Part shown: positions 3,701 to 37,050 of the stretch, in pieces | How positions within the stretch are numbered: the stretch's first letter is position 1 | Layout of the letters: every line of letters starts with the position of its first letter | NCBI GenBank assembly: GCA_003567775.1 | Contig: PWYR01000048.1 | Span: 1 to 37,206 of the forward strand | Reading direction: 5' to 3' | DNA length: 37,206 bases | Source: Ignavibacteriales bacterium | GTDB lineage: Bacteria; Bacteroidota; Ignavibacteria; T3Sed10-11 | Translations under genes and position numbers: made by a program | The notes under the pieces: generated by a model | What the model saw: only the letters and a program-made list of their open reading frames with translations | What the model was told of the DNA's origin: nothing | Database searches by the model: none

Positions 3701-5102
3701 AGAATGATCGAGGTTCCTTCGAGAATACGGCAAGCCGCGCGGTATCGCCCATCGATCCAATAGGTTCTTTTCCATTTGTTACCATCGGGATTAATATTCT
3801 CGACATATCTTCCTGTGTGTAGCCGAAAATACCCAAACGTTCTGTTGAAGGGAGCGGCTCATCGGTATGTATATACCCGGGTTTGTACAAACGCGCATCA
3901 AACCGAGCTTCATAGTTCTCCTTCGATTTTCCCGGATCTCTGAAATGAACTTTCCCTTTTACAAGATCTACCTTAACACCGGCGCCACCATGTAATGATC
4001 CTTTTTTAAAGATTTTAGACTCATTGATCTTAAACGAACCGGCTTCCGACGAAAGGTAAAAATGGTCGCGGGTCATTGCCCACCGACAGGGTCGGAAACC
4101 GCTTCGGTCAAGGCGTGCTCCGATGGTGCGGCCGTCGGAATATGTTATGAATGCCGGTCCGTCCCATGGCTCCATTGCCCGGCTCCAGAATTTATAAAAA
4201 TCGCTTTCCCGTGCTGCCGGAGGAATCATTATTGCAAGAATATCTTCGAGATGCGGGTTGCTTGAGCGGTACATGAGTGCTTCAACCATTTCATTCAAGC
4301 TACCCGAATCGCTTATCCCCTCGTTCGTCAATAACTCACCAGGTTGTAAACCGAGATAACGCTCGCGTACTTTTGCCCAGGAACGGTTTCCGGTTATTGT
4401 ATTTATTTCCCCGTTGTGACCGATTATTCGAAAAGGTTGTACTTTATCCCACGATGTTCGCGTATTAGTGCTGAACCGGCGGTGAAAAAGATTGAAACGG
4501 GTTTTGTATTCCGGGTTTTGCAAGTCGGGATAGAAACGGTCAAGTGCATCGGCACGTACGAGTGCTTTATAAACGATGGTTGTCGCCGAAAGCGAAACAA
4601 AATAAAACTCTTCTTTAATACCTGCATCAGCAAGCTTCACGCGTGCATGTTGTTTTGCAGTATAGAGCAGTTTATCAAAAGAAGCATCGGTACGAGAATG
4701 TGCCGGTCTTTTGATTACCGCGTGTACTATAGACGGCAGTGTGTTACGTGCAACGGCGCCGAGAATATCCATATTGATCGGGACGTCACGGTATTCAAGG
4801 ATGGATAAACCCATAAATTCAAAGACGTCCTTGAAAATGCCAAGACTCTTACGTTTTCCTTCTGCATTTCGAGAAATAAAGAGCGTAGCGATTGCGACCG
4901 AATTTCTATCGTATCCAAATAATTCGAACGGTATATCGGTCATAATGCCTGCGCCGTCACCGGTTACCCGGTCTGCACCGCAAGCGCCACGGTGTTCAAC
5001 GCACATAAGCGCTTCTAATCCTTCACGCAGATGATGATATGAATAATTACCACGCATACTTGCGATGAATCCTACCCCGCAGCTTCCTTTTTCTTGTAGC
5101 AT
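729..5102 (-). CDS. gltB: glutamate synthase large (alpha) subunit
   Basis: GltB makes two glutamates from glutamine and 2-oxoglutarate in the cytoplasm, with electrons from a partner such as GltD or ferredoxin; no gltD is in this window. I start it at the ATG at 5102 rather than at the track start 5180. GGAG lies 9 bases upstream, and the short propeptide MLQEKGS then leads to Cys8, the expected N-terminal nucleophile of the class II amidotransferase domain (CGVGFIA). The central and FMN/TIM-barrel synthase domains follow. Three cysteines at about 1077, 1083 and 1088 (GCVMARICEKNTCPTG) match the [3Fe-4S] site, and a C-terminal GXGXG beta-helix region contains GQGFGAYLVEG. About 1457 residues is normal for the bacterial enzyme. 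It is divergent from the 5211 gene. Confidence 0.96.
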   Translation of the reverse strand: MLQEKGSCGVGFIASMRGNYSYHHLREGLEALMCVEHRGACGADRVTGDGAGIMTDIPFELFGYDRNSVAIATLFISRNAEGKRKSLGIFKDVFEFMGLSILEYRDVPINMDILGAVARNTLPSIVHAVIKRPAHSRTDASFDKLLYTAKQHARVKLADAGIKEEFYFVSLSATTIVYKALVRADALDRFYPDLQNPEYKTRFNLFHRRFSTNTRTSWDKVQPFRIIGHNGEINTITGNRSWAKVRERYLGLQPGELLTNEGISDSGSLNEMVEALMYRSSNPHLEDILAIMIPPAARESDFYKFWSRAMEPWDGPAFITYSDGRTIGARLDRSGFRPCRWAMTRDHFYLSSEAGSFKINESKIFKKGSLHGGAGVKVDLVKGKVHFRDPGKSKENYEARFDARLYKPGYIHTDEPLPSTERLGIFGYTQEDMSRILIPMVTNGKEPIGSMGDTARLAVFSKEPRSFFDYFYQNFAQVTNPPLDYLREEFVTDLTIHLGKKPNIFAPKELIPPVHGIELDSPVLSLGQMRFIKEAGKNENNKYGILYKEFDATFNRRHGAVGFRLALRNLEQQTRTAAHNGATNIIITDKNASPEHPPIPSLIALRTVVNALNAIGFRLNISVIVHSGEIRETHHVAALIGFGASAVCPYLSLSIARQHKEGTADENERNLLTSFETGLMKIMSKCGIAVAKSYQSSKLFTPVGLGEEILSMFYHNNRSAIGGIGFDELVSDILNRVDNCSGENLLKTFQYKEHNKVERGERHSMTNIRSKIIHKLVRESQTREEAGTLYRDYLNLGANDEPVNIRHLFALQYIDQPISIDSVQKEKDIFKTFGSGAMSFGAISAESQRDIFLAMKEIGAKSNSGEGGENPYYFTEGITAAVKQVASGRFGVTAQYLVSGNEIQIKIAQGAKPGEGGQLMGVKVTPDIARARHSNPGVDLISPPPLHDIYSIEDLKQMIYEFKQLKPDVKVNVKLVAGWNIGTIAVGVAKAGADSIKVCGGDGGTGAASLSSMKHAGLPWEIGLVEVHKALIENNLRKNVVLSVDGGLSSGLDIIIAAILGGEEFDFGKLLLVAEGCVMARICEKNTCPTGIATHDPKFKKKYKGSKDHVISIMHHLAGEIRGHLSKLGAPTLRDLIGRTDMLAPNPVHADVIKNRKLDLSYFFDKMLIDDSQSTDLFNEGLSTLNQQIVDDTNEAIENNRDVQLSYVIHNTDRATMATVCGNLAVRKHLNHLKRVQELHESIEDYSGTVSLEFTGSAGQGFGAYLVEGVSVRLFGEANDSVCKSMSGGKVVVCPPRGTRFNNGDNTIIGNCALYGATAGIVYINGRAGDRFAVRNSGATAVVEGAGLHACEYMTNGRVVILGSVHYNLGAGMTGGKLFILGNQSDRVNEKYITSVHLTEQDKQELYDLLMDYVKETESPLGKRILDAWHQKHSEFVKYVPVKEAQELLAEEKHSAA

Positions 5103-6547: not shown

Positions 6548-8581
6548 ATGCTCACCGATACTGAAAAAATCATTTTTATACTGCTTGCAGCAACGTCTTT
6601 ATATATAGCATATATCCATTTTAATAGAATGTTTCGCATCATTGATCGCGGCGCCGGTGAATTACGATATCGCGAACTTCCGGGGCGGATATTGACAGGT
6701 ATTGCAGCGCTTTTTAATCAAGGAAATATCCTGCGCGACCGACCGGCAACATCGCTCTTTCATTATGCTGTTGCGTGGGGATTTATATTATATGTACTTG
6801 TCAATATCGTCGATGTATTTGAGGGGTACATAGCCGGTTTCCATTTTTTAGGCGATACGATTGCACACAATATTTACCTGCTGATTGCGGATATACTAAC
6901 ACTGGGCGTACTGATCGGAATTATTTATCTGATCGTTAGGAGATTTATTGCGAAAGCGCCTGCATTACAAATACGAGAGAACGTAAAAATTATGCCGGAG
7001 GCGATAAAAGGTATTCCGAAGGATTCTCTCATTGTCGGTGGATTTATTTTTGTGCACGTCGGATTTCGGCTATGCGGGGTTTCGTTTCTGGCGGCGCAGG
7101 AGGGAGGAGATGTCTGGCAGCCGGTGGCGAGTAGTGTTGCGCATGTATGGTATGCATTTTCTTTTTCTCAGGAAGCGCTCGTTGCCGGATGGCATGTGAG
7201 CTGGTGGATCGCTCTTGGATCGATACTCGCCTTTATTCCATATTTTCCGTATAGCAAACATGCTCATCTTTTCATGGGACCGCTCAATTTCATGGTGAAA
7301 GAAAGAGGGAAAGACAGAGCGGCATTAAAACCTATCGACTTTGAGGATGAATCGGTCGAGCAATACGGCGTTGCCCGTTTATCGGATCTTGAACAGCATC
7401 ATATTCTCGATGCTTATGCGTGTATTATGTGCAACCGTTGCCAGGATGCATGCCCTGCATACGTGACCGGGAAAGAGCTGTCACCCTCGGCTCTTGAAAT
7501 CAACAAACGATACTATGTCCGATCCAATGCAAAGAAACTTACGACCGGTGAAAATGGAGATGATCTCCCGCTTCTCGAGTATGCGATCAGTGAAGACGCC
7601 GTCTGGGCATGTACGACATGCGGCGCTTGTGTGGATATATGTCCGGTGGCAAACGAACCCATGGTTGATATAGTTCATATGCGGCGCAATCAGGTTATGA
7701 TGGAAAGTGCGTTTCCGGCAGAATTTAAAAATACATTCCAGAATCTCGAACGAAACTATACCCCGTGGGCATTCAGTCATGCCGATCGGGCGAAATGGGC
7801 GGAAGGTCTCGACATACCGACCGTTAAGGATAATCCCGATTTCGAATATCTCTACTGGGTCGGATGCGCCGGTTCCTACGATAACCGGTATAAAAAAGTA
7901 TCGCGCGCGTTTACTGCATTGTTGAAAATGGCGGGCGTCAACTTCGCAATTTTGGGTGACGAGGAAAAATGCAATGGAGACACTGCACGGCGGCTCGGCA
8001 ATGAATATCTTGCCAATATGATGATGTTGGAAAATGTTGAAATATTAAACGGTTATAATGTTAAGAAAATTATTACAACATGTCCGCATTGCTTTAATAT
8101 CTTCGGCAAAGAATATCCTGATTTTAACGGAAAATATGAGGTTATCCATCATTCCGATTTTCTTATGGAATTAATCAAAGCCGGGAAGCTGCGGGTTTCG
8201 AAAGAACAACAAAAAAAGATTACCTATCACGACTCGTGTTATCTCGGAAGGTATAATTCCGTCTATGATTCACCGCGTGATGTAATCAAGTCGATCGGGG
8301 GTGTGAACTATGCCGAGATGAATAGAATACGAGACAAGGGATTTTGCTGCGGCGCCGGAGGTGGCAGAATGTGGATGGAGGAAACGGTCGGTAAACGGGT
8401 TAATGTAGACAGAACCGAAGAGGCGCTTTCGCTGAAACCGGACGTGATCGGAACCGCATGTCCTTTTTGCATGACTATGATGACCGACGGCGTGAAATCC
8501 AAAGAAAAAGACGAAGATGTTGCAGTGAAAGATATTGCCGAATTGCTTCTTGAAGCTATGGAGGATGATGGACAAACGTAA
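6548..8581 (+). CDS. membrane HdrD-like Fe-S oxidoreductase (EMO/DUF224 type)
   Basis: A 677-residue membrane-bound electron-transfer protein. Residues 1 to about 240 contain about six hydrophobic helices resembling NarI-type cytochrome b subunits. A two-cluster ferredoxin domain follows, with CIMCNRCQDACP from Cys292 and CTTCGACVDICP from Cys355. The C-terminal half has two CCG domains: the first is degenerate (EKCNGD, then CPHC), the second classical (FCCGAGGG around Cys600-601, then CPFC). This layout matches proteins proposed as electron-transfer-flavoprotein:menaquinone oxidoreductases and relatives of HdrD, GlpC and DsrK. No etfAB or substrate dehydrogenase is adjacent, so the electron donor is unknown. 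AAGGAG lies 7 bases before the ATG. It follows the YjbQ gene after 42 bases, probably in the same operon. Confidence 0.85.
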   Translation: MLTDTEKIIFILLAATSLYIAYIHFNRMFRIIDRGAGELRYRELPGRILTGIAALFNQGNILRDRPATSLFHYAVAWGFILYVLVNIVDVFEGYIAGFHFLGDTIAHNIYLLIADILTLGVLIGIIYLIVRRFIAKAPALQIRENVKIMPEAIKGIPKDSLIVGGFIFVHVGFRLCGVSFLAAQEGGDVWQPVASSVAHVWYAFSFSQEALVAGWHVSWWIALGSILAFIPYFPYSKHAHLFMGPLNFMVKERGKDRAALKPIDFEDESVEQYGVARLSDLEQHHILDAYACIMCNRCQDACPAYVTGKELSPSALEINKRYYVRSNAKKLTTGENGDDLPLLEYAISEDAVWACTTCGACVDICPVANEPMVDIVHMRRNQVMMESAFPAEFKNTFQNLERNYTPWAFSHADRAKWAEGLDIPTVKDNPDFEYLYWVGCAGSYDNRYKKVSRAFTALLKMAGVNFAILGDEEKCNGDTARRLGNEYLANMMMLENVEILNGYNVKKIITTCPHCFNIFGKEYPDFNGKYEVIHHSDFLMELIKAGKLRVSKEQQKKITYHDSCYLGRYNSVYDSPRDVIKSIGGVNYAEMNRIRDKGFCCGAGGGRMWMEETVGKRVNVDRTEEALSLKPDVIGTACPFCMTMMTDGVKSKEKDEDVAVKDIAELLLEAMEDDGQT

Positions 8582-19646: not shown

Positions 19647-20657
19647 TCAACAAATCCTCGGCAACTGCTCGCCCGCCAGCATATCCACTACTCGATTCCC
19701 GCCGATCGATGTTTTAAGCAACACGTATCCGTAATGGTCATCAACCACTTCACCGATAACGCGTGCTTCTTTTCCCTGTGGATTTTTGTGCATCGCTATT
19801 ACAATGTCTTCTGCTTCATCGGCGGGAACGACGGCTAATAATTTCCCTTCGTTTGCAACGTAAAGCGGATCGAGTCCGAGAATCTCGCACGCAGCTTTAA
19901 CGGTTTCTGAAACAGGTATGTCTGATTCGTTGAGTGCGATGCCTTTCTTTGATGTTTGCGCTAATTCATTGAGTGAGCTTGACAAACCGCCGCGGGTGGG
20001 ATCGCGCATCCAGCGGATGTTTTTACTGACGGTCAACATGTCCTGAACAAGATGATTTAACGGCGCCGTGTCGCTCGTTATTGCGGTTTCAAATTCTAAT
20101 CCTTCCCGGATTGACATGATGGCGATGCCGTGTTCACCGATTGGACCGTTAACGATAATTTTGTCTCCCGGTTGAACACGTCCCGGGTGCATCTCTATTC
20201 CTTCGTCGATTACACCGATCCCCGACGTGTTTATGAAAATTTTATCCCCTTTTCCTTTTTCAACGACTTTTGTGTCGCCGGTAACAAGCTGAACACCGGC
20301 GCGTTCACAGGCATTCTTCATATCCGAAACAACACGTTCGAGTTCATCCATCGGCATACCCTCTTCGAGGATGACGCCTGCGCTGATATATAAAGGGCGG
20401 GCGCCGCCGACGGCAAGGTCGTTCACAGTGCCGTGCACTGCAACATCGCCGATACTGCCTCCCGGAAAAAAAATAGGATTAACAACATACGAGTCGGTTG
20501 TAAATGCTATACGCGTCCCGTTAATATTCATAACCGCCTGGTCGCCAAGCGGCGCGAGAAATTCATTGGTAAATGCAGGTAAAAACATCTTGCTGATAAG
20601 TTCGGCTGAGAGCTTCCCTCCGCTGCCGTGACCGAGTAAAATTTTGGTTTTATTCAT
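19647..20657 (-). CDS. hypE: hydrogenase maturation protein HypE
   Basis: HypE receives a carbamoyl group from HypF on its C-terminal cysteine and dehydrates it with ATP to a thiocyanate. The cyanide ligand is then passed to the iron held by HypC-HypD. The protein is 336 residues and ends exactly in PRIC, with the essential Cys336 as the last residue. The N-terminal GHGSGGKLS and the AIR-synthase-like ATP-binding domain with RDPTRGG are visible. It is the last gene of the hypABFCDE run, 5 bases after the hypD stop. It converges on hpnE. Maturation genes only, with no structural gene on this strand. Confidence 0.96.
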   Translation of the reverse strand: MNKTKILLGHGSGGKLSAELISKMFLPAFTNEFLAPLGDQAVMNINGTRIAFTTDSYVVNPIFFPGGSIGDVAVHGTVNDLAVGGARPLYISAGVILEEGMPMDELERVVSDMKNACERAGVQLVTGDTKVVEKGKGDKIFINTSGIGVIDEGIEMHPGRVQPGDKIIVNGPIGEHGIAIMSIREGLEFETAITSDTAPLNHLVQDMLTVSKNIRWMRDPTRGGLSSSLNELAQTSKKGIALNESDIPVSETVKAACEILGLDPLYVANEGKLLAVVPADEAEDIVIAMHKNPQGKEARVIGEVVDDHYGYVLLKTSIGGNRVVDMLAGEQLPRIC

Positions 20658-20662
20658 ACGGG

Positions 20663-21766
20663 CTATCCAACTCCCTGACGATACCGTCCATAATTATAAT
20701 ACGCAGCACACGCTCCTTCGGACGAAACCATTGTTGCGCCGAGCGGCGTCATTGGAGTGCATTCTTTACCGAATGCCGGGCACTCGTGCGGTTTTTTTAC
20801 ACCTTGCAGTACAAGGCCGCTGATACAGATCTCGGATTCTTGTGAGTGAATGTTCGAAATCCCCGGGAATACTTCTTCTGCGTCATAGGCGGCGAATTCA
20901 TCTTTTAGCATGTACCCGCTGTTGGGAACGATCCCGATCCCGCGCCAGGCACGATCGCCTATTTTAAAGACTTTAAAAATAGTCTCCTGAGCGGGAATAT
21001 TTCCTTCCCGGGTTACCGCGCGGGTGTATTGGTTTTCCACTTCGTATCTGCCTTCTTCGAGCTGTTTGATCAGCATATAAATTCCCTGCAATAAGTCGAG
21101 CGGCTCGAAACCGGTGACTACCATCGGAACCTGGTATTGCTTCGCCATTGGCTCATAATCTTTGTATCCCATTACCGCACACACATGTCCGGCGGCAACG
21201 AATCCCTGTACGCTGTTAAACGGTGAGTCGAGCACCGCTTCCATTGCAGGAGGAACGAGGACGTGTGAAACCAATATTGAAAAGTTATTCAGCCCGAGTT
21301 GTTTTGCTTGCCAGACTGCCATTGCATTGGCGGGAGCTGTGGTTTCAAAACCGACCGCAAAGAAGACCACTTTTTTATCGGGATGTTTTTGTGCGAGTTT
21401 TACGGCATCGAGCGGAGAATAGACGATGCGGACATTACCACCGTCTGCTTTTACGGAGAATAGATCTTTATGTGAACCGGGAACCCGCAGCATATCGCCG
21501 AATGATGTAAAAATAACATCCGGTTGTGATGCAATCTCAAGCGCTTTATCGATCATTTCAAGCGGCGTCACACAAACAGGACAGCCCGGTCCGTGGATCA
21601 GGGTTATGTTTTCCGGCAGCAGTTGGTCGATGCCGGTTTTAACGATTGTGTGCGTTTGTCCGCCGCACACTTCCATAATCGCCCACTTTTTGGTCGTGAT
21701 TTTGTGGATTTTCCGGGCTTCTTTTTTGATCAAGTCGGCGTCGCGATATTCGTCTATATATTTCAT
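20663..21766 (-). CDS. hypD: hydrogenase maturation protein HypD
   Basis: HypD is the Fe-S scaffold that, with HypC, carries the Fe(CN)2CO unit during assembly of the NiFe site. The 367-residue protein has [10 protein letters not shown] with Cys34, [10 protein letters not shown] with Cys62 and Cys65, [22 protein letters not shown], and a C-terminal block [13 protein letters not shown]...[11 protein letters not shown], whose cysteines bind the [4Fe-4S] cluster. The track starts 53 residues upstream, but ATG 21766 overlaps the hypC stop (ATGA) and gives the conserved [10 protein letters not shown]-terminus; the extra residues are not HypD-like. It is tightly coupled to hypC. Confidence 0.96.
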
Positions 21767-22020
21767 TCCACATCCTCTCCGCCAAGTTCTTCGCCTAACG
21801 CTCCGATTTGTTTCAGATATGAGAGCGTTTCCATAGCTTCTTCCTCGTTGAGTTTGCTGATGCCAAAGCCGACATGAACCACCGTATAATCCCCGACCCG
21901 ACAATCGGGAATATATTCGAGACAAACCGATTTTACCACACCGCCAAAATCGACTTTCCCCATCTTTAGTCCGTTCTCTTCGTATGTTTCGGTTATTTTA
22001 CCTGGAATACCTAAGCACAT
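21763..22020 (-). CDS. hypC: hydrogenase maturation chaperone HypC
   Basis: HypC is a small chaperone that shuttles the iron centre between HypD and the hydrogenase large subunit. The true start must be ATG 22020: it gives MCLGIPGK with the invariant Cys2, exposed after removal of the initiator Met, and GGAG lies 5 bases upstream. The track start at 22071 adds 17 unrelated residues. The 85-residue length, the [14 protein letters not shown] core and the [15 protein letters not shown] motif fit the family. It overlaps hypD by 4 bases and follows a 141-base spacer of short repeats after hypF. Confidence 0.94.
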
Positions 22021-22112
22021 AGTTTCTCCGTTTTTTGTTATGTGTTTTGAGTTTGCAGCTTTCAGTTTCAAGCTTTAGCGTAATGTAATGTATATCTACA
22101 ACCGTACACTGC

Positions 22113-22161: not shown

Positions 22162-24441
22162 TTAACTATTAACTGCTTTATTCATCGCAACAACCGCCTG
22201 TCCCAACGAAAGCCCGCCGTCATTCGGCGGTACACGGGAGTGTGTGTGTACATTCATACCGCGTTGCGACAACAGCGCAACTGATTTCTCGAGCAATAGT
22301 ACATTTTGAAAGACACCTCCGCTTAGTATAACATCTTGCAATCCTGTTTCTTTTCCGACTCGTTCCGACGTATCGGAAATAATCAAAGCCATCGTATTAT
22401 GGAATTTCTGAGAGATTGCTGATACCGGGATTTCCTGCTGAAGATCATCCACGATATTTTTTACTATTCCCTGCCATTTGATTTTCCAGGGAGTTGCGGC
22501 TGTATCAATGTCATAATCATAATACATTGATATATGCTCATCGGCAAGCATTTGTAACTCGATCGCTGCTTGCGCTTCGTAGTTTATAGTTTGTTTGATT
22601 CCACAAAGTGCGGCAATTCCATCAAACAACCTGCCGGCGGCAGAAGTAACCGGTGTATTCAGTTTCTGTCGGATCATTTTTTCAATAACCGGCAATGCAT
22701 TCATTGTCTGTAATGATCTAATAAAGGGAATATCAATATTTATATAGTCGTTTCCAAAAGTGTTATAGAGCAGGGAGAATGCGATTCGCCAGGGTTCTCT
22801 TATTGCTTGCTCTCCCCCTGCGAGCGGGATATGGTCGAAATGAGCAATGCGATTGTATCCGGCCGGAGTTGCTGTCATAATCTCGCCGCCCCAGATTGTT
22901 CCGTCTGGCCCGTATCCGGTTCCGTCAAATGATACTCCAATAACTTCACCGGATAAATTGTTTTCAGCCATACAACTTACAATGTGTGCGTGATGATGCT
23001 GTACCGGTATTTTTAGGGGGATATCGCTTTCGATAGCGTATTTTGTAGATAAGTACTCCGGGTGCATATCATATGCGAGAACTTCCGGAGTAATGTTAAA
23101 TAAATTTTTAAAGTGTTCGATGCCTTCGGTAAACGATCGTAGTGTTTCGTAATTTTCGAGATCGCCGATGTGATGACTTAGAAAAGCAAATTCATTCTTC
23201 ATATAACAGAACGTATTTTTTAGGTGTCCGCCGACGGCGATAACCGGTTGTTTTGTGTGAATATTCAATTTTACGGGATAAGGGACATAGCCGCGTGAAC
23301 GGCGCAGCATTGTTTGCCGGTTGTTCAGGACCGCACCGACGCTGTCGTCGCAGCGCATGTGAATGTCTCGATTATGAACGAGAAAATAGTCTGCTATCGT
23401 ACTCAGCCGTTCGAATGCATCCCGATCTTTATATGCTATCGGTTCTTCGCTGATGTTAGCGCTCGTCATAACTAATGGCATAGCCGCATCGTTGAGCAGA
23501 ATGTGATGAAGCGGCGTGTATGGAAGCATTACTCCTAAATATTTATTGTTTGGGGCAACTTCATTGCCTACCGGAGAATTATCTTTTCTACGAACAAGAA
23601 CGATGGGGCGATTGATCGATTGGATGAATGATATCTCCTGCCGATTTGGTTCGCATAGTCGATCGAGCCAGGTGATATCCGGTATCATTATGGCAAATGG
23701 TTTTTCGATGCGTCTTTTTCGTTTGCGTAATTGTCCAACCGCTTCATTGTTTGTTGCATCGCACGCAAGATGGTAGCCGCCGAGTCCTTTAAGGGCAATT
23801 ATCTTCCCGGCTTTGAGTAGTGTAGTTGTATGACGAACTACATCATCGGCAACGACTATGTTTTGATGGATGTCTGATAAAGTTACCGTCGGTCCGCACA
23901 CGGGACAGGCATTCGGTTGTGCGTGAAATCTGCGATTTGCCGGATCGTTATATTCCCGTTTGCAATCGGAGCACATCGGAAAGATCGACATCGTGGTATT
24001 CGGACGATCATAAGGGATATCCTGTATGATAGTAAATCGAGGTCCGCAGTTCGTACAATTAATAAAAGGATACCTATAGCGACGATCGTTCGGATCGAAT
24101 AACTCGTGTAGACAATCATCGCACACGGCTACGTCGGGGGAGATGAGGGTGAAGCGTTCATCGCTGCCGTTGCTCGCTTTAATGATAAAATCATTGAATC
24201 CTTTGTAATCGATCTCTTGCGATTCTACTTTATCTATCAGTGCAAGGGGAGGGGATGATCGGTTGATTGCATGAATGAATAATTGCATGGATGTGTGATC
24301 GCCTTCCGCTTCAATCTCTACGCCGTGTGCATTATTGCTGACCGTTCCCCTGAGTCCGTATTGTTGTGCTAACCGGTAAATAAACGGTCTGAATCCAACC
24401 CCCTGAACGATTCCCTTTACTATGATCTTTTTTGCAAGCAT
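22162..24441 (-). CDS. hypF: carbamoyltransferase HypF
   Basis: HypF uses carbamoyl phosphate and ATP to carbamoylate the C-terminal cysteine of HypE, the source of the cyanide ligands. The domain order is complete: an acylphosphatase domain (GIVQGVGFRPF at about 10-20), two zinc-finger-like blocks (CDDC...NCTNCGPR and CSDCKREY...CPVCGP), a YrdC/Sua5-like domain, and a Kae1-like carbamoyl-transfer domain with HHHAHIVSCMAENNL, SFDGTGYGPDGTIWGGE and SGGVFQN. I choose ATG 24441 because it gives the family N-terminus MLAKKIIVKGIVQG. ATG 24447 and GTG 24474 (track) are alternatives, and none has a strong ribosome binding site. It follows hypB closely. Confidence 0.95.
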   Translation of the reverse strand: MLAKKIIVKGIVQGVGFRPFIYRLAQQYGLRGTVSNNAHGVEIEAEGDHTSMQLFIHAINRSSPPLALIDKVESQEIDYKGFNDFIIKASNGSDERFTLISPDVAVCDDCLHELFDPNDRRYRYPFINCTNCGPRFTIIQDIPYDRPNTTMSIFPMCSDCKREYNDPANRRFHAQPNACPVCGPTVTLSDIHQNIVVADDVVRHTTTLLKAGKIIALKGLGGYHLACDATNNEAVGQLRKRKRRIEKPFAIMIPDITWLDRLCEPNRQEISFIQSINRPIVLVRRKDNSPVGNEVAPNNKYLGVMLPYTPLHHILLNDAAMPLVMTSANISEEPIAYKDRDAFERLSTIADYFLVHNRDIHMRCDDSVGAVLNNRQTMLRRSRGYVPYPVKLNIHTKQPVIAVGGHLKNTFCYMKNEFAFLSHHIGDLENYETLRSFTEGIEHFKNLFNITPEVLAYDMHPEYLSTKYAIESDIPLKIPVQHHHAHIVSCMAENNLSGEVIGVSFDGTGYGPDGTIWGGEIMTATPAGYNRIAHFDHIPLAGGEQAIREPWRIAFSLLYNTFGNDYINIDIPFIRSLQTMNALPVIEKMIRQKLNTPVTSAAGRLFDGIAALCGIKQTINYEAQAAIELQMLADEHISMYYDYDIDTAATPWKIKWQGIVKNIVDDLQQEIPVSAISQKFHNTMALIISDTSERVGKETGLQDVILSGGVFQNVLLLEKSVALLSQRGMNVHTHSRVPPNDGGLSLGQAVVAMNKAVNS

Positions 24442-24477
24442 TTTCATAAACTCAAAACTCAAAACACGCAACACATT

Positions 24478-25128
24478 TCATTTAACCACGTGCGACTCCA
24501 GCCACGAACACCACTCATCAATTCCTTCACCCGTTGTGCACGATGTCTCAAATATTTTGAGCGACGGATTGATCTGTAATGCATTCTTTTTTAGTGTCTC
24601 GACATTGCAATTCAAATACGGAACAAGATCAATCTTGTTAATTATTAAAACCGATGAGTTCCTGAACATATTCGGATACTTGACCGGTTTGTCGTCTCCT
24701 TCCGTAGTGCTGACAACGACCACTTTGTGTGCTTCTCCCAGATCGTAATTCGCCGGACAGACGAGGTTACCGACATTTTCAATTACGAGTAATTGTGTCT
24801 TATCGAGATCGACATTCTCAAGCGCATCACGGACGAGCCGCGCTTCGAGGTGGCACCCGCCGTTAGTAACGATCTGCACAGCGGGCACATCGAGAGCGGA
24901 TATACGGCGCGCGTCGTTATCGGTCTGAACGTCGCCCTCAATGACGGAGATAATCAGCTTTCCTTTTAAACGTTCGATTGTACGTTCGAGAATGCTTGTT
25001 TTTCCCGAACCGGGTGAACTGACCACATTGATGGTAAAAACTTTGTTGGCATCGAAATCATCGCGGTTTTTCTGTGCGATTTGATCGTTCTTCTCAAGAA
25101 CTTTTCGTTCGATAGTGATAACGCTCAT
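24478..25128 (-). CDS. hypB: hydrogenase nickel incorporation GTPase HypB
   Basis: HypB is a GTPase that, with HypA, delivers nickel to the hydrogenase large subunit after the iron centre is in place. The 216-residue protein lacks the His-rich N-terminal nickel store seen in some relatives. The Walker A motif SSPGSGKTS is at 37-45, EGDVQTDNDARR follows, the metal-binding loop GGCHLEARLV is present, and the NKIDLVPY guanine-specificity motif is near residue 165. AAGGAG lies upstream of the ATG, which overlaps the hypA stop by 4 bases. Confidence 0.96.
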   Translation of the reverse strand: MSVITIERKVLEKNDQIAQKNRDDFDANKVFTINVVSSPGSGKTSILERTIERLKGKLIISVIEGDVQTDNDARRISALDVPAVQIVTNGGCHLEARLVRDALENVDLDKTQLLVIENVGNLVCPANYDLGEAHKVVVVSTTEGDDKPVKYPNMFRNSSVLIINKIDLVPYLNCNVETLKKNALQINPSLKIFETSCTTGEGIDEWCSWLESHVVK

Positions 25129-25490
25129 AAATTCTCCTTTGGTGAATCATCAATTTCAATTTCGGTTACCTGCAACTCAGTCCCCGATAATATTTTTACA
25201 TTTGCATTGGTACATTCCGGACAAATAAAGAATGGATCGTCGATTTCGAAATCCTTTTTGCATTGGCCGCAGTGTATAACGAGCGATGTAAATTCCATTT
25301 GCAGGACAGCTTTTTCCATACCGGGCGTTTCGGCAGCGAGTACCTGAAAGCCGAATTCCAGGGAGTCAGGTACTATTCCAGCCATCTTACCGATTTTAAT
25401 TGCAACACTCTGTACAGAATGTGAATTCTCTTCCGGCAAATGCTGCGAAACAATGTCGATTATATTTTGTGCTACGGACATTTCGTGCAT
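25125..25490 (-). CDS. hypA: hydrogenase nickel metallochaperone HypA
   Basis: HypA binds Ni(II) through its N-terminal Met-His-Glu motif, with His2 as the key ligand, and hands it on with HypB. At 121 residues it is of normal size. It has a zinc finger of two CxxC pairs at Cys74/Cys77 and Cys90/Cys93, and the family start MHEMSVAQNI. It is the first gene of the hyp arm. A leader of about 180 bases lies between the predicted sigma-54 start and the ATG, including a TCCCGAC-TT-GTCGGGA hairpin just upstream of a GGAG. Confidence 0.95.
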   Translation of the reverse strand: MHEMSVAQNIIDIVSQHLPEENSHSVQSVAIKIGKMAGIVPDSLEFGFQVLAAETPGMEKAVLQMEFTSLVIHCGQCKKDFEIDDPFFICPECTNANVKILSGTELQVTEIEIDDSPKENL

Positions 25491-25516
25491 AACGACTTTT
25501 TACTCCTCATTTTCTT

Positions 25517-25532
25517 TCCCGACTTGTCGGGA
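25517..25532 (-). repeat. TCCCGAC-GTCGGGA inverted repeat in the hypA leader
   Basis: TCCCGAC and GTCGGGA, 7-bp perfect arms with a 2-base centre, sit shortly before the hypA ribosome binding site (GGAG). It could be an operator or a short RNA hairpin. Confidence 0.55.
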
Positions 25533-25547
25533 CAGAATTTACTATAA

Positions 25548-25617
25548 AGACACTATTTCTAAGTTAACAAGAAAGTACTAATTATGCGAAGAAATTATGA
25601 ATGTCATTATAGTGTCT
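25548..25617. repeat. 9-bp inverted repeat AGACACTAT / ATAGTGTCT
   Basis: Arms at 25548-25556 and 25609-25617 are perfect, with 52 bases between them, inside the hypA leader. They may fold the leader RNA or be paired binding sites. Confidence 0.45.
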
Positions 25618-25680
25618 GTACCCACCACACGGGCAAGTCGTTGATAGTTCCTCAAATCATTAGAGTGCAATTTAATTCAC

Positions 25681-25696
25681 CGCAATAAATGAGCCA
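25681..25696 (-). promoter_or_regulatory. putative sigma-54 (-24/-12) promoter for the hypABFCDE operon
   Basis: The minus strand reads TGGCTC-ATTTA-TTGC. It carries the diagnostic GG and GC doublets 10 bases apart and nearly the full TGGCAC-N5-TTGC consensus, with one mismatch. The transcript would start near 25670, about 180 bases before hypA. A similar exact site precedes the structural genes at 31700. Confidence 0.5.
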
Positions 25697-25731: not shown

Positions 25732-25817
25732 ATATTCTCGCATTTAATAAATTAAAATCAAGGAAAATTCTCACTTTTGCAAAGATAATAACATAAATCA
25801 TGAAGATTTGAGAATAT
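25732..25817. repeat. ATTCTC/GAGAAT elements upstream of the hyp promoter
   Basis: ATATTCTC (25732-25739), AAATTCTC (about 25766-25772) and the inverted GAGAATAT (25810-25817) lie about 36-120 bases upstream of the predicted -24 element, the range where sigma-54 activators bind. Assignment as activator sites is speculative. The remainder of the 400-base gap from 25491 to 25889 holds no gene. Confidence 0.3.
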
Positions 25818-31613: not shown

Positions 31614-31627
31614 TGCGGAAATCCGCA
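31614..31627. promoter_or_regulatory. dyad TGCGGA-AA-TCCGCA upstream of the sigma-54 site
   Basis: A 6-bp dyad with a 2-base centre lies just past the SDR stop, about 75-85 bases upstream of the hydrogenase -24 element. It may be an activator site, or a short terminator for the SDR gene, although no T-run follows. The core GGAAATCC also occurs in the speD promoter dyad. Confidence 0.3.
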
Positions 31628-31699
31628 CCTCTAATAACGGATTTTCGTATTTACTTACTCTCTCCGGTTCTGAAAATGCCTAAAATTGCCTCTTTTTTA

Positions 31700-31715
31700 T
31701 GGCACAATGCTTGCC
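31700..31715 (+). promoter_or_regulatory. putative sigma-54 (-24/-12) promoter for the hydrogenase operon
   Basis: TGGCAC-AATGC-TTGC matches the full sigma-54 core consensus (TGGCAC-N5-TTGC), with GG and GC exactly 10 bases apart. Transcription would begin near 31726, about 64 bases before the large-subunit ATG, whose ribosome binding site is GGAGG. Sigma-54 control of hydrogenases is known in several proteobacteria, and always needs an NtrC-type activator; none is encoded in the window. Confidence 0.65.
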
Positions 31716-31789: not shown

Positions 31790-33349
31790 ATGGCTAAAAT
31801 CACCGTTGATCCTTTAAACAGGGTTGAGGGTCATCTAAAAATTGAAGCTGTTGTGGAAAACGGCGTCGTCAAGGAGGCGCGAAGCGCCGGAACAATGTGG
31901 CGCGGGTTCGAAAATATTTTGAAGAACCGTAATCCGCTTGATGCACAGCGTATAACTCAGCGAATATGCGGTGTGTGTCCGATTGCTCATACAATGGCAT
32001 CGACCTTAAATCTTGATGAGGCGTTTGGTATTGCGAATCGCATCCCTGAAAACGGTCGGATCATCCGCAATTTAATATTGGGTTCAAATTTTCTGCAATC
32101 CCACATTCTTCATTTCTATGCACTCGCAGCTCTCGATTTTGTAGATGTAACCGCAGCGGCGGACTATGCCGGTAGTGATAGACATCTTCAACAAGTACAG
32201 TCCTTCATCAAACGCGGATCACTCTATCCGTTTTTCCCGAGATATGAAGGAGATTATCGTTTAAGAAAAAATGAGAACGTACAGGCAGTAAAACATTATG
32301 CAGGGTCGCTCGATATCCGCCGTTTAGCACACGAAATGCTCGCAATTTGGGGAGGCAACATGCCGCAAAGTGTTGCAATCGTACCCGGCGGCGTGACGGA
32401 AAATCCGACGGTTTCGAAAATTGCAGATTTTCGCTTCCGGTTAAAAAAGATAAGTCACTTTATAGAAAATTCCTATATCCCGGATGTGTTAATGGTCGCA
32501 TCGCGTTATCCGGATTATTTCGAGATCGGCGATGGATTAAAAGAATATTTATCATACGGATGTTTCGAGCTTGACAGCGAACCCGATCTTATTAAACGGA
32601 AAAGATTATTCTCAAGCGGAAGAATTACGCTCCGTGATCTGAATAAATTGCCGCTTGATCCGCAAAAAATAACTGAAGATGTGACGCACTCATGGTATAA
32701 ACAAAACGGTGCATTGCATCCGTCGGTTGGAGTCACGGATCCGGATCACAAGAAGGAGGGAGCGTATACCTGGCTGAAAGCACCGCGTTATGACGGAAAA
32801 CCGTATGAGGTTGGTCCGCTCGCACGGCAGGTTATAGCATACGTTGACGGTTACGAGCCGACAGTATCTATGGTCAACGCGGTGCTTGGTCAATTCAATG
32901 CTTCACCTGCGGTTCTGGGATCGACGCTCGGCAGGCACGCTGCACGTGCTATTGAGACAAAGATCGTTGCCGATCGTATGGCTGAGTGGGTGCTTGAATT
33001 GAAACCGGGTGAACCTGTTCATACTCATTTTGAGATTCCTGAATCGGCAACGGGTTACGGTATAACCGAAGCTCCCCGCGGAGGTGTCGGTCACTGGATA
33101 TCGATTAAGAATTATAAAACCGATAATTATCAGGCGGTGGTGCCGACCACATGGAACGGTTCACCGAGAGACGAAAACAATGTGCCGGGACCAATCGAAC
33201 AGGCGCTTGAAGGGACACCGGTGCGTGATGAGAAAAATCCGTTTGAGTTAGTGCGTATCGTCCGCTCGTTCGATCCGTGCCTTGCCTGTGCAGTCCACGT
33301 GGTGACGCCGAAAGGTAACGAGATAACACGATTCGTGGTCGAGGGATAA
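31790..33349 (+). CDS. NiFe-hydrogenase large (catalytic) subunit, HybC-like
   Basis: Catalytic subunit of a group 1 membrane-associated uptake NiFe hydrogenase, which oxidises H2. The N-terminal L1 motif RICGVCPIAHT carries nickel ligands Cys60 and Cys63. The C-terminal L2 motif DPCLACAVH carries Cys497 and Cys500, and His503 marks the end of the mature chain. A 16-residue tail after His503 (ending RFVVEG) is the expected substrate of the maturation protease encoded next. The 519-residue length is normal for the family. GGAGG lies 4 bases before the ATG. It is the first gene of the structural operon, behind the sigma-54-like site. Gene order large-protease-small differs from E. coli hyb. Confidence 0.95.
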   Translation: MAKITVDPLNRVEGHLKIEAVVENGVVKEARSAGTMWRGFENILKNRNPLDAQRITQRICGVCPIAHTMASTLNLDEAFGIANRIPENGRIIRNLILGSNFLQSHILHFYALAALDFVDVTAAADYAGSDRHLQQVQSFIKRGSLYPFFPRYEGDYRLRKNENVQAVKHYAGSLDIRRLAHEMLAIWGGNMPQSVAIVPGGVTENPTVSKIADFRFRLKKISHFIENSYIPDVLMVASRYPDYFEIGDGLKEYLSYGCFELDSEPDLIKRKRLFSSGRITLRDLNKLPLDPQKITEDVTHSWYKQNGALHPSVGVTDPDHKKEGAYTWLKAPRYDGKPYEVGPLARQVIAYVDGYEPTVSMVNAVLGQFNASPAVLGSTLGRHAARAIETKIVADRMAEWVLELKPGEPVHTHFEIPESATGYGITEAPRGGVGHWISIKNYKTDNYQAVVPTTWNGSPRDENNVPGPIEQALEGTPVRDEKNPFELVRIVRSFDPCLACAVHVVTPKGNEITRFVVEG

Positions 33350-33350
33350 T

Positions 33351-33854
33351 ATGTGGGCAGATTTATATAATAAAAAACCAATTCTCGTCGTCGGTGTCGG
33401 TAATCTCATACAGCGTGATGATGGTTTCGGCGTTCATGCCGTTCGAGCATTAGCCGGTCAAGTTTTGCCCGATAATGTGGATCTGTTCGACGGGGGCTCG
33501 CTCGGTCCGGAAATGCTTCCGTGGTTGGAAGGACGGAGAAAGATCGTGTTTATAGATGCAGTCAACGCCGGTATGGCGCCGGGGACGCTATTCCGGTTTG
33601 AACCGCAGGATTTACAATACCACATGGAAGAGAAGACGTCGATTCATCAAATAGGGTTGATCGATACTCTGTCGATGGCGGAACTGATGGGTGACATACC
33701 GGATGAGGTTGTGATCATCGGAGTACAGCCGAAGGTAATCGACTGGGGAGAGGATTTATCCCCCGAATTAGAAAACGTTGTTCCAAAAGCGATTAATCTT
33801 GTGAAAAAAGAAATTCTTAAAAATACTACCATATTGGAGGAACAAAATGAGTGA
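33351..33854 (+). CDS. hydrogenase maturation endopeptidase, HybD/HyaD-like
   Basis: A nickel-dependent protease that removes the C-terminal tail of the large subunit once nickel is installed. The 167-residue protein has the family start VVGVGNLIQRDDGFGVHAV, containing the first nickel-binding acidic residue (Asp/Glu in the QRDDGFG loop). FDGGSLGPEMLPWLEG, FIDAVNAG and a later SIHQIG histidine complete the metal site. The ATG lies 1 base after the large-subunit stop, so they are translationally coupled. The end overlaps the small-subunit start by 8 bases. Positioning between large and small subunit suits its specificity for the adjacent large subunit. Confidence 0.94.
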   Translation: MWADLYNKKPILVVGVGNLIQRDDGFGVHAVRALAGQVLPDNVDLFDGGSLGPEMLPWLEGRRKIVFIDAVNAGMAPGTLFRFEPQDLQYHMEEKTSIHQIGLIDTLSMAELMGDIPDEVVIIGVQPKVIDWGEDLSPELENVVPKAINLVKKEILKNTTILEEQNE

Positions 33855-34977
33855 ACAAAAACAATGGTCTCGCAGACAAATACTCTCCTTGTTTGCGAAA
33901 GGTTCCGGTATACTTATGGGAGCAAGCTTGTTTCAGATACCCGGTTTCACGAAACTCTTTGCAGAGGCGGTTGATGAAATACCGGTGCTGTTCTTACAGG
34001 GCGGTAGTTGCACCGGGTGTTCGGTTTCGCTGCTGAATTCGGTCAGCCCGACCATTCAGGATGTACTGCTCGGACAGATACTTCCCGGAACATCGTTGAG
34101 TGTCTTATGGCATTCAAATGTCTCGGCTGCACAGGGACATCAGGTTATGGAAATACTGGACGACGTGAAAAGTCGCCCGAAAGGTAGTTTCGTTCTTGTG
34201 ATGGAAGGAACGATACAAACGAAAGACGACGGAATCTACTGCGAGTTCGGTGAGCGCGACGGTAAACATTATACTATGTACGAGCACCTGCTCGAACTTG
34301 CACCGAATGCGATGGCAATTATTTCGATGGGTACTTGCGCCGCATTTGGCGGTATTCCGGCAGCCCCGCCTAACCCGACCGGAAGTAAGTCGGTGAAAGC
34401 CGTACTCGATGAGCACGGAATCGATACACCTGTTGTCAACGTACCCGGCTGTCCGCCGCATCCCGATTGGGTTGTCGGTACGATCGCAACGGTATTAATC
34501 GGTGGACTCGGCGCCGTTGATGTCGATCAACACGGGCGACCGAAAGCATTTTACGGTACGTTAATTCATGACAATTGTCCGTTACGAGGACATTTCGATG
34601 CAGGCAAATTTGCGCGGGATTTCGGTGAAAAAGGTTGCCTGTATGAACTCGGCTGTAAAGGACCGGTAACACATAGTGATTGTCCCACCCGAAAATGGAA
34701 CAACGGCGTGAACTGGATTATTGGCGCCGGGCATCCATGTATGGGATGCGTCGAACCGTTCTTCCCCCACGGCGATAATATTTTTGAGCGTGTTCCGATT
34801 CATTTCGCAACTGCGCCCGCAACGTATCCGCCAATTGTGACGGATCGTCCATCGAAGGTCGATCCTGTAGTAACCGGTATACTGGGCGCTGCCGCCGGCG
34901 CCGCAGCAGGCGCAGCGGCTATGTCGAAAAAGAAAAAGAAACCGGATGAATCCACGGTAAAAGAAAAGGAGGAATAG
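33847..34977 (+). CDS. NiFe-hydrogenase small subunit with Tat signal, HybO-like
   Basis: The electron-transfer subunit carrying three Fe-S clusters between the active site and the membrane partner. A twin-arginine signal is present: SRRQILSL with Arg9-Arg10, then a hydrophobic stretch and a processing region before residue 40. The proximal cluster starts with SCTGCSVSLLN at Cys55 and Cys58, followed by GTCAAFGG and VPGCPPHP. The distal site lies in HDNCPLRGHFDAG, with later cysteines GCLYELGCKGP. The medial site reads DCPTRKWNNGVNW, then HPCMGCVEP, whose Pro-for-Cys position fits a [3Fe-4S] cluster. The C-terminal tail GILGAAAGAAAGAAAM then KKKKK is a short Ala/Gly-rich hydrophobic segment, perhaps an anchor. 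GGAGG precedes the ATG. Confidence 0.94.
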   Translation: MSEQKQWSRRQILSLFAKGSGILMGASLFQIPGFTKLFAEAVDEIPVLFLQGGSCTGCSVSLLNSVSPTIQDVLLGQILPGTSLSVLWHSNVSAAQGHQVMEILDDVKSRPKGSFVLVMEGTIQTKDDGIYCEFGERDGKHYTMYEHLLELAPNAMAIISMGTCAAFGGIPAAPPNPTGSKSVKAVLDEHGIDTPVVNVPGCPPHPDWVVGTIATVLIGGLGAVDVDQHGRPKAFYGTLIHDNCPLRGHFDAGKFARDFGEKGCLYELGCKGPVTHSDCPTRKWNNGVNWIIGAGHPCMGCVEPFFPHGDNIFERVPIHFATAPATYPPIVTDRPSKVDPVVTGILGAAAGAAAGAAAMSKKKKKPDESTVKEKEE

Positions 34978-34980
34978 TCT

Positions 34981-35874
34981 ATGTCAGTCAACAGACGAAC
35001 ATTCCTCAAAACCACCGCAGCCGGCATTGGCGGCGGAGTGCTCGCAACGCAGCAAACGAAAGCCGCGAGACCGAGAAAAGCGCTTGATACCGACATCGCG
35101 ATGCTGAACGATTGCACAAAGTGCATCGGTTGCCGGGCGTGTCAATCCAGATGTAAAGAGACTCACGGACTTGAACGCGACGGAACAGATCTGCGCTATG
35201 ATATGCCGCTCGACCTCAGCGGCCGCAGTTTAACATTGATAAAAATGTATAAGAATGACGATTTCTTTACATTTGTGAAGAAACAATGTCTGCATTGCGG
35301 CGATCCTTCATGTGTATCTGTGTGTCCGGTATCGGCTTTCGAAAAATTAGATAACGGGATCGTGGCGTATAATAAGGATGCATGTATCGGATGCCGTTAC
35401 TGTATGATCGCCTGTCCGTGGGATGCACCGACATTTGAGTACGATAAAGCATTGCCGGTTATACAGAAATGCGACTTTTGCAAAGATGCACGGTTGGCAC
35501 ACGGGTTGGATCCGGCATGTGCCGATGCATGTCCGACCGGTGCGATTAAATACGGAAAACGCGGCGATCTTATACAAGAAGCCCACGAACTGATAAAAAA
35601 TAACCCCGAAAAATATAACGACCATGTATACGGAGAACACGAATTGGGCGGCACCTCAGTATTAGTGCTTGCGCCGAAAGAGGTTCGCTTTGAAGAGTTG
35701 GGATATAAGTTGTACGGGGACATTCCGCCGTTCAGGTTACAGGAAGATATTCAACACGGTATCTTTAAGTATTTCATACCGCCGGTGGCTTTGTATGCCG
35801 TTCTTGGAATGATTGCTTATGCAACCCGTCGTAAAGATAATGAGTCAACAAAAAACGATGATAAGAAAGGATAA
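34981..35874 (+). CDS. HybA-like Tat-exported ferredoxin subunit
   Basis: A periplasmic four-cluster ferredoxin that passes electrons from the small subunit to the membrane quinone reductase. The Tat motif NRRTFLK is at residues 4-10. Four [4Fe-4S] blocks are present: CTKCIGCRACQSRC, CLHCGDPSCVSVC, CIGCRYCMIAC and CDFCKD...CADAC. The C-terminus contains one transmembrane helix (YFIPPVALYAVLGMIAYA), a feature also typical of HybA. The 297 residues are slightly shorter than E. coli HybA. It starts 3 bases after the small-subunit stop and precedes the HybB-like gene by 3 bases, in one operon. Confidence 0.93.
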   Translation: MSVNRRTFLKTTAAGIGGGVLATQQTKAARPRKALDTDIAMLNDCTKCIGCRACQSRCKETHGLERDGTDLRYDMPLDLSGRSLTLIKMYKNDDFFTFVKKQCLHCGDPSCVSVCPVSAFEKLDNGIVAYNKDACIGCRYCMIACPWDAPTFEYDKALPVIQKCDFCKDARLAHGLDPACADACPTGAIKYGKRGDLIQEAHELIKNNPEKYNDHVYGEHELGGTSVLVLAPKEVRFEELGYKLYGDIPPFRLQEDIQHGIFKYFIPPVALYAVLGMIAYATRRKDNESTKNDDKKG

Positions 35875-35877
35875 ACC

Positions 35878-37050
35878 ATGGAACATAAATGTGCTCCTAT
35901 GAATCAGCGATTGTGGACGCCATGGTTTACTGCCGGTGTCGCAATCATTGCTATTGGCGCTGCTATTCTTATATACCGTTTTATTGCAGGTTTGGGTGCT
36001 GTTACAAATCTCAACGATGGTTTTCCGTGGGGTCTGTGGATAGCATTCGATGTTGTGACTGGTGTCGCACTTGCAGCAGGAGGATTCACTATAGCTGCCC
36101 TTGTATATATATTTAATAAGTGGGAATATTCACCGCTTGTGCGTCCTGCTCTTTTAACGGCGCTTTTAGGATACGCGATCGCGGCTATTGCTATTGTTAT
36201 CGACGTCGGTCGATGGTGGCAAATTTATAATCCCGTATTGCCGCAATACTGGCAGGGGAACTCACCGTTGTTTGAAGTGGCGATTTGTGTGAAGATATAC
36301 CTTACCGTGATGATAATTGAATTCATACCGGCAGTTTCCGAGAAGTATAAAGACAGTCACAAACCGTTTTTCCGATCGTTAGCCAATAAACTCGGACCAT
36401 TTGTAAATAAATATTTAATTATTTTCATATTATTGGGCGTGGTTGTTTCGACGCTTCACCAATCATCGTTGGGTGCGGTGATGATCGCGGCAGTCGATAG
36501 AATACATCACTTATGGTGGAGTCCGTGGATGCCGTTAATGTTCTTGATTTCGGCTATCGCTGCCGGCTTTGCGGTAGTAACTGTTGAATCTTACATTGCC
36601 GCAAAGAGCTTTAAACGCAAACCTGAAAAAGATATGCTTGCCCGGCTTGCGGGTATTATTCCCTATGTTTTAGGCGCCTATTTGCTTCTGAAGTTGTACG
36701 ATCTTATTGCATACGGCAAGCTGCCGCTATTAATAGCAGATTGGTGGGGACTTATTTATATCGTAGAACTGTCAATCTTTGCTTTGATACCAATCTATAT
36801 GTTACGGAAAAAATCGGTGCGCTTTGACATCGGTAAACTGCTTAGCGTATCCGTATTGATGATTGCCGGCATTATACTGAATAGATTGAATACGTATTTG
36901 TTTACGTATCAGCCGAGGCCGGGGAGGACGTATTTCCCGACTCTTGAGGAAATAATCGTAACGGCGGCATTGATATCGTTATTGTTTGTCGGCTATAAGA
37001 TATTGGCGAATTTCTTCCCGGTGATACATGTAAGTACGGAAGAAAACTGA
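35878..37050 (+). CDS. HybB-like NrfD-family membrane quinone reductase subunit
   Basis: An integral membrane protein of about ten helices (390 residues) that takes electrons from the HybA-like subunit to reduce menaquinone or ubiquinone. The HybB/NrfD motif NDGFPWGLWIAFDVVTG is near residues 46-62, and HQSSLGA, HHLWWSPWMP and RLNTYLFTYQP further support HybB rather than a cytochrome b type anchor such as HyaC. AAAGGA lies 6 bases before the ATG. It is the last gene of the structural operon and is followed by a 15-bp inverted-repeat hairpin. Confidence 0.94.
   Translation: MEHKCAPMNQRLWTPWFTAGVAIIAIGAAILIYRFIAGLGAVTNLNDGFPWGLWIAFDVVTGVALAAGGFTIAALVYIFNKWEYSPLVRPALLTALLGYAIAAIAIVIDVGRWWQIYNPVLPQYWQGNSPLFEVAICVKIYLTVMIIEFIPAVSEKYKDSHKPFFRSLANKLGPFVNKYLIIFILLGVVVSTLHQSSLGAVMIAAVDRIHHLWWSPWMPLMFLISAIAAGFAVVTVESYIAAKSFKRKPEKDMLARLAGIIPYVLGAYLLLKLYDLIAYGKLPLLIADWWGLIYIVELSIFALIPIYMLRKKSVRFDIGKLLSVSVLMIAGIILNRLNTYLFTYQPRPGRTYFPTLEEIIVTAALISLLFVGYKILANFFPVIHVSTEEN

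Follow-up and report, generated by a model that had tools for sequence, protein, structure and literature searches.

The DNA upstream of the hydrogenase maturation gene hypA carries a minus-strand sequence, TGGCTCATTTATTGC, that is very probably (we put it at about 0.85, judging from its sequence) the −24/−12 element of a sigma-54 (RpoN) promoter transcribing the hypABFCDE maturation operon. The window, i.e. the whole stretch of 37 206 nucleotides analysed, is contig C35 of an Ignavibacteriales assembly of 2.28 Mb that is 68% complete. Its minus-strand arm runs in the order hypA-hypB-hypF-hypC-hypD-hypE, and its plus-strand arm encodes the hydrogenase itself (large subunit, maturation protease, small subunit, HybA-like Fe–S protein and NrfD/HybB-like membrane protein); the arms are separated by an epimerase-like gene and two antiporter genes of the Na+/H+ exchanger-TrkA type (Table 1). 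The named relatives that bear this hydrogenase are Bacteroidetes/Ignavibacteriae metagenome assemblies, the closest two (91% and 97% identical) having CSSed isolate names and a 74% relative being labelled fen. The original prediction placed two sigma-54-like sites so that they point into two divergent arms about 6 kb apart. Both sites proved to be conserved, lying 6.0 kb apart and in opposite directions, in a genome that encodes one RpoN (domains AID, CBD and DBD) together with some nine enhancer-binding proteins (EBPs), none of whose genes was found in the window.

Table 1. Positions of the predicted regulatory elements and genes in the window.
Feature	Position	Strand	Basis or remark
Sigma-54-type −24/−12 promoter core TGGCTCATTTATTGC, facing hypA	25682..25696	-	Motif match, rarity, conservation
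Conserved block TTTGCAAAAGTGAGAATT	25766..25783	-	Four-species alignment; about 70-87 bp upstream of the −24 element
Extra leader DNA, about 150 bp, between promoter and hypA ATG	25491..25642	.	Alignment with congeners
Sigma-54-type promoter core TGGCACAATGCTTGC, facing structural operon	31700..31714	+	Motif scan, conservation, matrix rank
Tandem dyad TGCGGAAATCCGCA-N-ACGGATTTTCG	31614..31647	.	Occurrence search across genomes
hypA, nickel metallochaperone	25125..25490	-	
hypB	24478..25128	-	
hypF	22162..24474	-	
hypC	21763..22071	-	
hypD	20663..21925	-	Start codon uncertain; listed ORF overlaps hypC
hypE	19647..20657	-	
[NiFe] hydrogenase large subunit, group-1 type	31790..33349	+	
Hydrogenase maturation protease, HycI/HybD type	33351..33854	+	
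[NiFe] hydrogenase small subunit	33847..34977	+	
HybA-like Fe–S subunit	34981..35874	+	
NrfD/HybB-like membrane subunit	35878..37050	+	

Sigma-54 (−24/−12) promoters are recognised by a GG and a GC 10 bp apart in TGGCAC-N5-TTGC. The hypA-facing site, read from 25696 to 25682 (base 25681 adds a G), has this geometry in the form TGGCTC-N5-TTGC, and the description of TGGCTC-ATTTA-TTGC as a GG-10-GC element with one core mismatch was correct, the mismatch to the E. coli genomic-SELEX consensus TGGCACnnTTnTTGC being an A to T change at position 5 (PMC8743547). Bare GG-N10-GC was discarded as uninformative (99 matches on the plus and 110 on the minus strand of the window). Across the 2.28 Mb genome we counted 10 strict cores (TGGCNC-N5-TTGC) and 18 copies of a reversed control pattern, and equal matches do not abound before unrelated genes: gene-facing upstream DNA holds just four of the 10, namely those before hypA and the large subunit gene and a pair on contig C133, as assigned by simple ORF rules rather than by a gene finder. 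The remaining six are inside predicted coding sequence, although one of them, on contig C126, overlaps the last bases of its ORF, 85 nt ahead of a UvrD-like gene, and may be genuine as well. In dinucleotide shuffles, strict cores facing the gene arose with P = 0.00025 for the 399-bp hypA spacer and P = 0.00095 for the 178-bp structural spacer. Scanning gene-upstream positions with an approximate sigma-54 matrix, in a 361-kb sample partly enriched for contigs with motif matches, ranked the structural site first and the hypA site fifth. Chance similarity in AT-rich spacer DNA is a very improbable explanation of the hypA match: in its loose forms the motif is no more frequent in the window than expected (14 found versus 16.4 expected for the 16-mer with two mismatches allowed), but the strict form is rare, well placed and shared by three congeners and a distant species.

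The C133 pair (positions 4135-4149 and 7664-7678, minus strand, of locus L123, C133:20000-33000) precedes HlyD-like and MacB/FtsX permease export genes and adjoins a response-regulator EBP, and looks like a clean EBP circuit within this genome. Near-core sites were also seen 40-51 nt before genes at five further loci of the window genome (L172, L181, L182, L130 and L193), the targets being two cytochrome c assembly genes, HSP20, a flavin reductase and one unnamed gene; TTGA or TTGT stands at −12 in several of them, a hint that the lineage tolerates variation in this element.

The predicted hypA site is supported most strongly by its conservation. Three of the four congeners having hypA carry a strict core 36-45 nt before the gene, with GG, C and TTGC invariant (TGGCGCAATTATTGC at 45 nt in G002; TGGCTCAGTTATTGC at 36 nt in G005; and TGGCTCGTTTCTTGC at 39 nt in G003), giving an invariant core and a variable spacer in four congeners once the window genome is included. 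In the four-species alignment, 11 of the 15 columns of TGGC.C..TT.TTGC are invariant, other windows of that width averaging 2.4. Against the sigma-54 reading stand the fourth congener (G004), which has no strict core upstream of hypA and has lost the site, and the more distant hypA genes of the class, 24 of 25 of which have no strict core nearby; the exception is a member of a different family (G108), with TGGCTCACTTCTTGC 18 nt before the hypA ATG. For it stand the ChIP-supported Salmonella hypA and hycA sites, which are of the same form (PMC3844500). The 15-mer TGGCTCAGTTATTGC of G005 recurs in that genome on contig C148 (locus L127, 3824-3838, minus strand), immediately preceding a PorX-like response regulator/PglZ gene.

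The window genome differs from its congeners in the distance between site and start codon, 191 nt as against 36-45 nt, owing to extra leader DNA that is missing in the congeners and is bounded by an 8-bp inverted repeat (AACGACTT / AAGTCGTT). This DNA also holds a TCCCGACAAGTCGGGA palindrome. A repeat search of the assembly returned nothing of it elsewhere beyond a single 25-bp partial match, and its assignment to a mobile-element family was dropped as unsupported. With this insertion the leader would be expected to reach about 180 nt; the promoter should be retained, and the extra DNA may contribute one of its own. That a primary-sigma promoter accounts for most hypA transcription, whether from within the extra leader or at the TTTG block upstream, with the sigma-54 site minor or dormant, seems unlikely to us. 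Such a promoter could be accommodated by a sigma-70-like match (9/12) at 25570-25541 within the extra leader, by a site-to-ATG distance that is unusual for the genus, and by a TTTG followed by an AT-rich stretch, which we take to resemble Bacteroidota promoters; however, sigma-70-like matches occur only at chance level (two found versus 1.8 expected), the core is still strict in the window genome despite the insertion, and constraint at the site is limited to the sigma-54 positions. The only other 15-column block as conserved as the site (11 columns) in the four-species alignment is TTTGCAAAAGTGAGAATT (the TTTGCAAAAnTnAGAA or TTTGCAAAA block), which is not a clear dyad and is a candidate EBP enhancer site or, alternatively, a primary-sigma promoter element.

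The structural-arm site is unchanged in G002; G001 has TGGCATAATACTTGTC in its place. Upstream of it, the tandem dyad GCGGAAATCCGC...ACGGATTTTCG occurs once per genome, only before this hydrogenase, in G001, G002 and the window genome, and G130 has a related but diverged pair at a greater distance upstream of its gene. We consider the GCGGAAATCCGC dyads a candidate enhancer of the structural arm. The dyad folds as a hairpin directly after the stop codon of the epimerase-like gene, making a terminator role possible; no T-run follows it in G001 or G002. The structural site itself can be written as TTATGGCA-N7-TGCCATAA, a perfect 8-bp inverted repeat in the window genome with a fold z-score of −3, and might be an operator for a repressor or activator, or an RNA hairpin, instead of a sigma-54 site. 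The G001 sequence, which alters the C at −12 while keeping most of the palindrome, would suit this, but G002 breaks the palindrome and keeps the sigma-54 core exactly, and TTGT is present among ChIP-supported Salmonella sigma-54 sites, e.g. that of pspA (PMC3844500), making an operator or hairpin improbable here.

The core, its placement, its conservation and the genes for RpoN and EBPs can be read directly from the DNA, and from these we infer RpoN binding, the start of transcription, a single hyp transcript and the identity of the activator. Closed RpoN holoenzyme would rest on TGGCTC-N5-TTGC until activated, and an AAA+ EBP, probably bound at the conserved TTTGCAAAAnTnAGAA block about 70-90 bp upstream, would open the complex with ATP. 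The second sigma-54 promoter would serve the structural operon, where the candidate enhancer is a different one, namely the GCGGAAATCCGC dyads.

The original prediction also joined the two arms in one regulon; sigma-54-type promoters on both arms are supported, and a single coordinating activator is not, the candidate enhancers being different. Comparing the 120 bp upstream of the hypA and structural sites, the best shared stretch had 18 of 30 bases in common, and 20 of 40 bases were shared against a mean of 20.8 after shuffling; no shared enhancer above chance was found between the arms in either orientation. The C133 pair, by comparison, has in common 27 of the 30 bases of CTGTCCGNNNCCGAACACCNGTGTCCGGTA, an upstream sequence near −90 that is presumably the enhancer bound by its EBP. 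No copy of the structural dyad pair precedes hypA. Furthermore, the hypA site is retained by G003 and G005 (assemblies 79% and 94% complete), in which we detected no group-1 large subunit; the [NiFe] hydrogenases that were detected there sit on contigs without a strict core. A sigma factor common to both arms is thus well supported and a common activator is not; what unites the arms may be the sigma factor and not membership of one regulon. As in an FhlA-like regulon, a sigma-54 site precedes both operons, but no activator site common to them was found. Activation of both promoters by one EBP, as by FhlA for E. coli hyc/hyp, is therefore somewhat doubtful, even with strict cores in both gene-facing spacers, the E. 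coli/Salmonella precedent, and the prospect that a short or diverged enhancer could escape the comparison. A further reading, to which we give a little under even odds, is that in this Ignavibacteria-like lineage maturation and structural genes are both RpoN-dependent and answer to different EBPs, cofactor assembly and enzyme synthesis being gated separately (AND-type) and not as one regulon.

HoxA/HupR-type NtrC-family control of uptake hydrogenases occurs in Proteobacteria, and the window resembles such systems in having uptake-type hydrogenase genes behind NtrC-family control. Unlike them, it has no adjacent EBP, and only one [NiFe] large subunit was detected in the genome (68% complete), no second (sensor) one being found, so that there is no obvious H2-sensing hydrogenase. 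The enterobacterial hyc and hyp operons are likewise divergent and both sigma-54/FhlA dependent (PMC3844500, PMC13298927), with Salmonella sigma-54 sites TGGCATGGAAAATGC for hycA and TGGCATAAATATTGC for hypA (PMC3844500), and the hycA-hypA spacer was selected by E. coli RpoN holoenzyme (PMC8743547). As there, the structural and hypA-led operons of the window diverge, each with its own sigma-54 promoter. The enterobacterial operons, however, have a single short spacer and a single activator (FhlA) in common, and their Hyc enzyme is hydrogenase 3, whereas in the window 6 kb separate the arms, the candidate enhancers are unrelated, no EBP gene was found nearby, and the enzyme belongs to group 1 (HybA/HybB-partnered). 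Sigma-54 control of hyc and hypA is thus already established in enterobacteria, and the present case extends a known type.

A literature search on Ignavibacteria, RpoN and hydrogenase found no report. Most documented cases of hydrogenase and hyp genes under sigma-54 control are proteobacterial, and a 2025 survey found such control enriched for hydrogenase maturation factors in Proteobacteria (PMC12316311). The conserved hypA and large-subunit sites would extend such control to a poorly studied Bacteroidota/Ignavibacteria lineage and offer concrete candidate enhancer motifs, a useful annotation more than a surprise.
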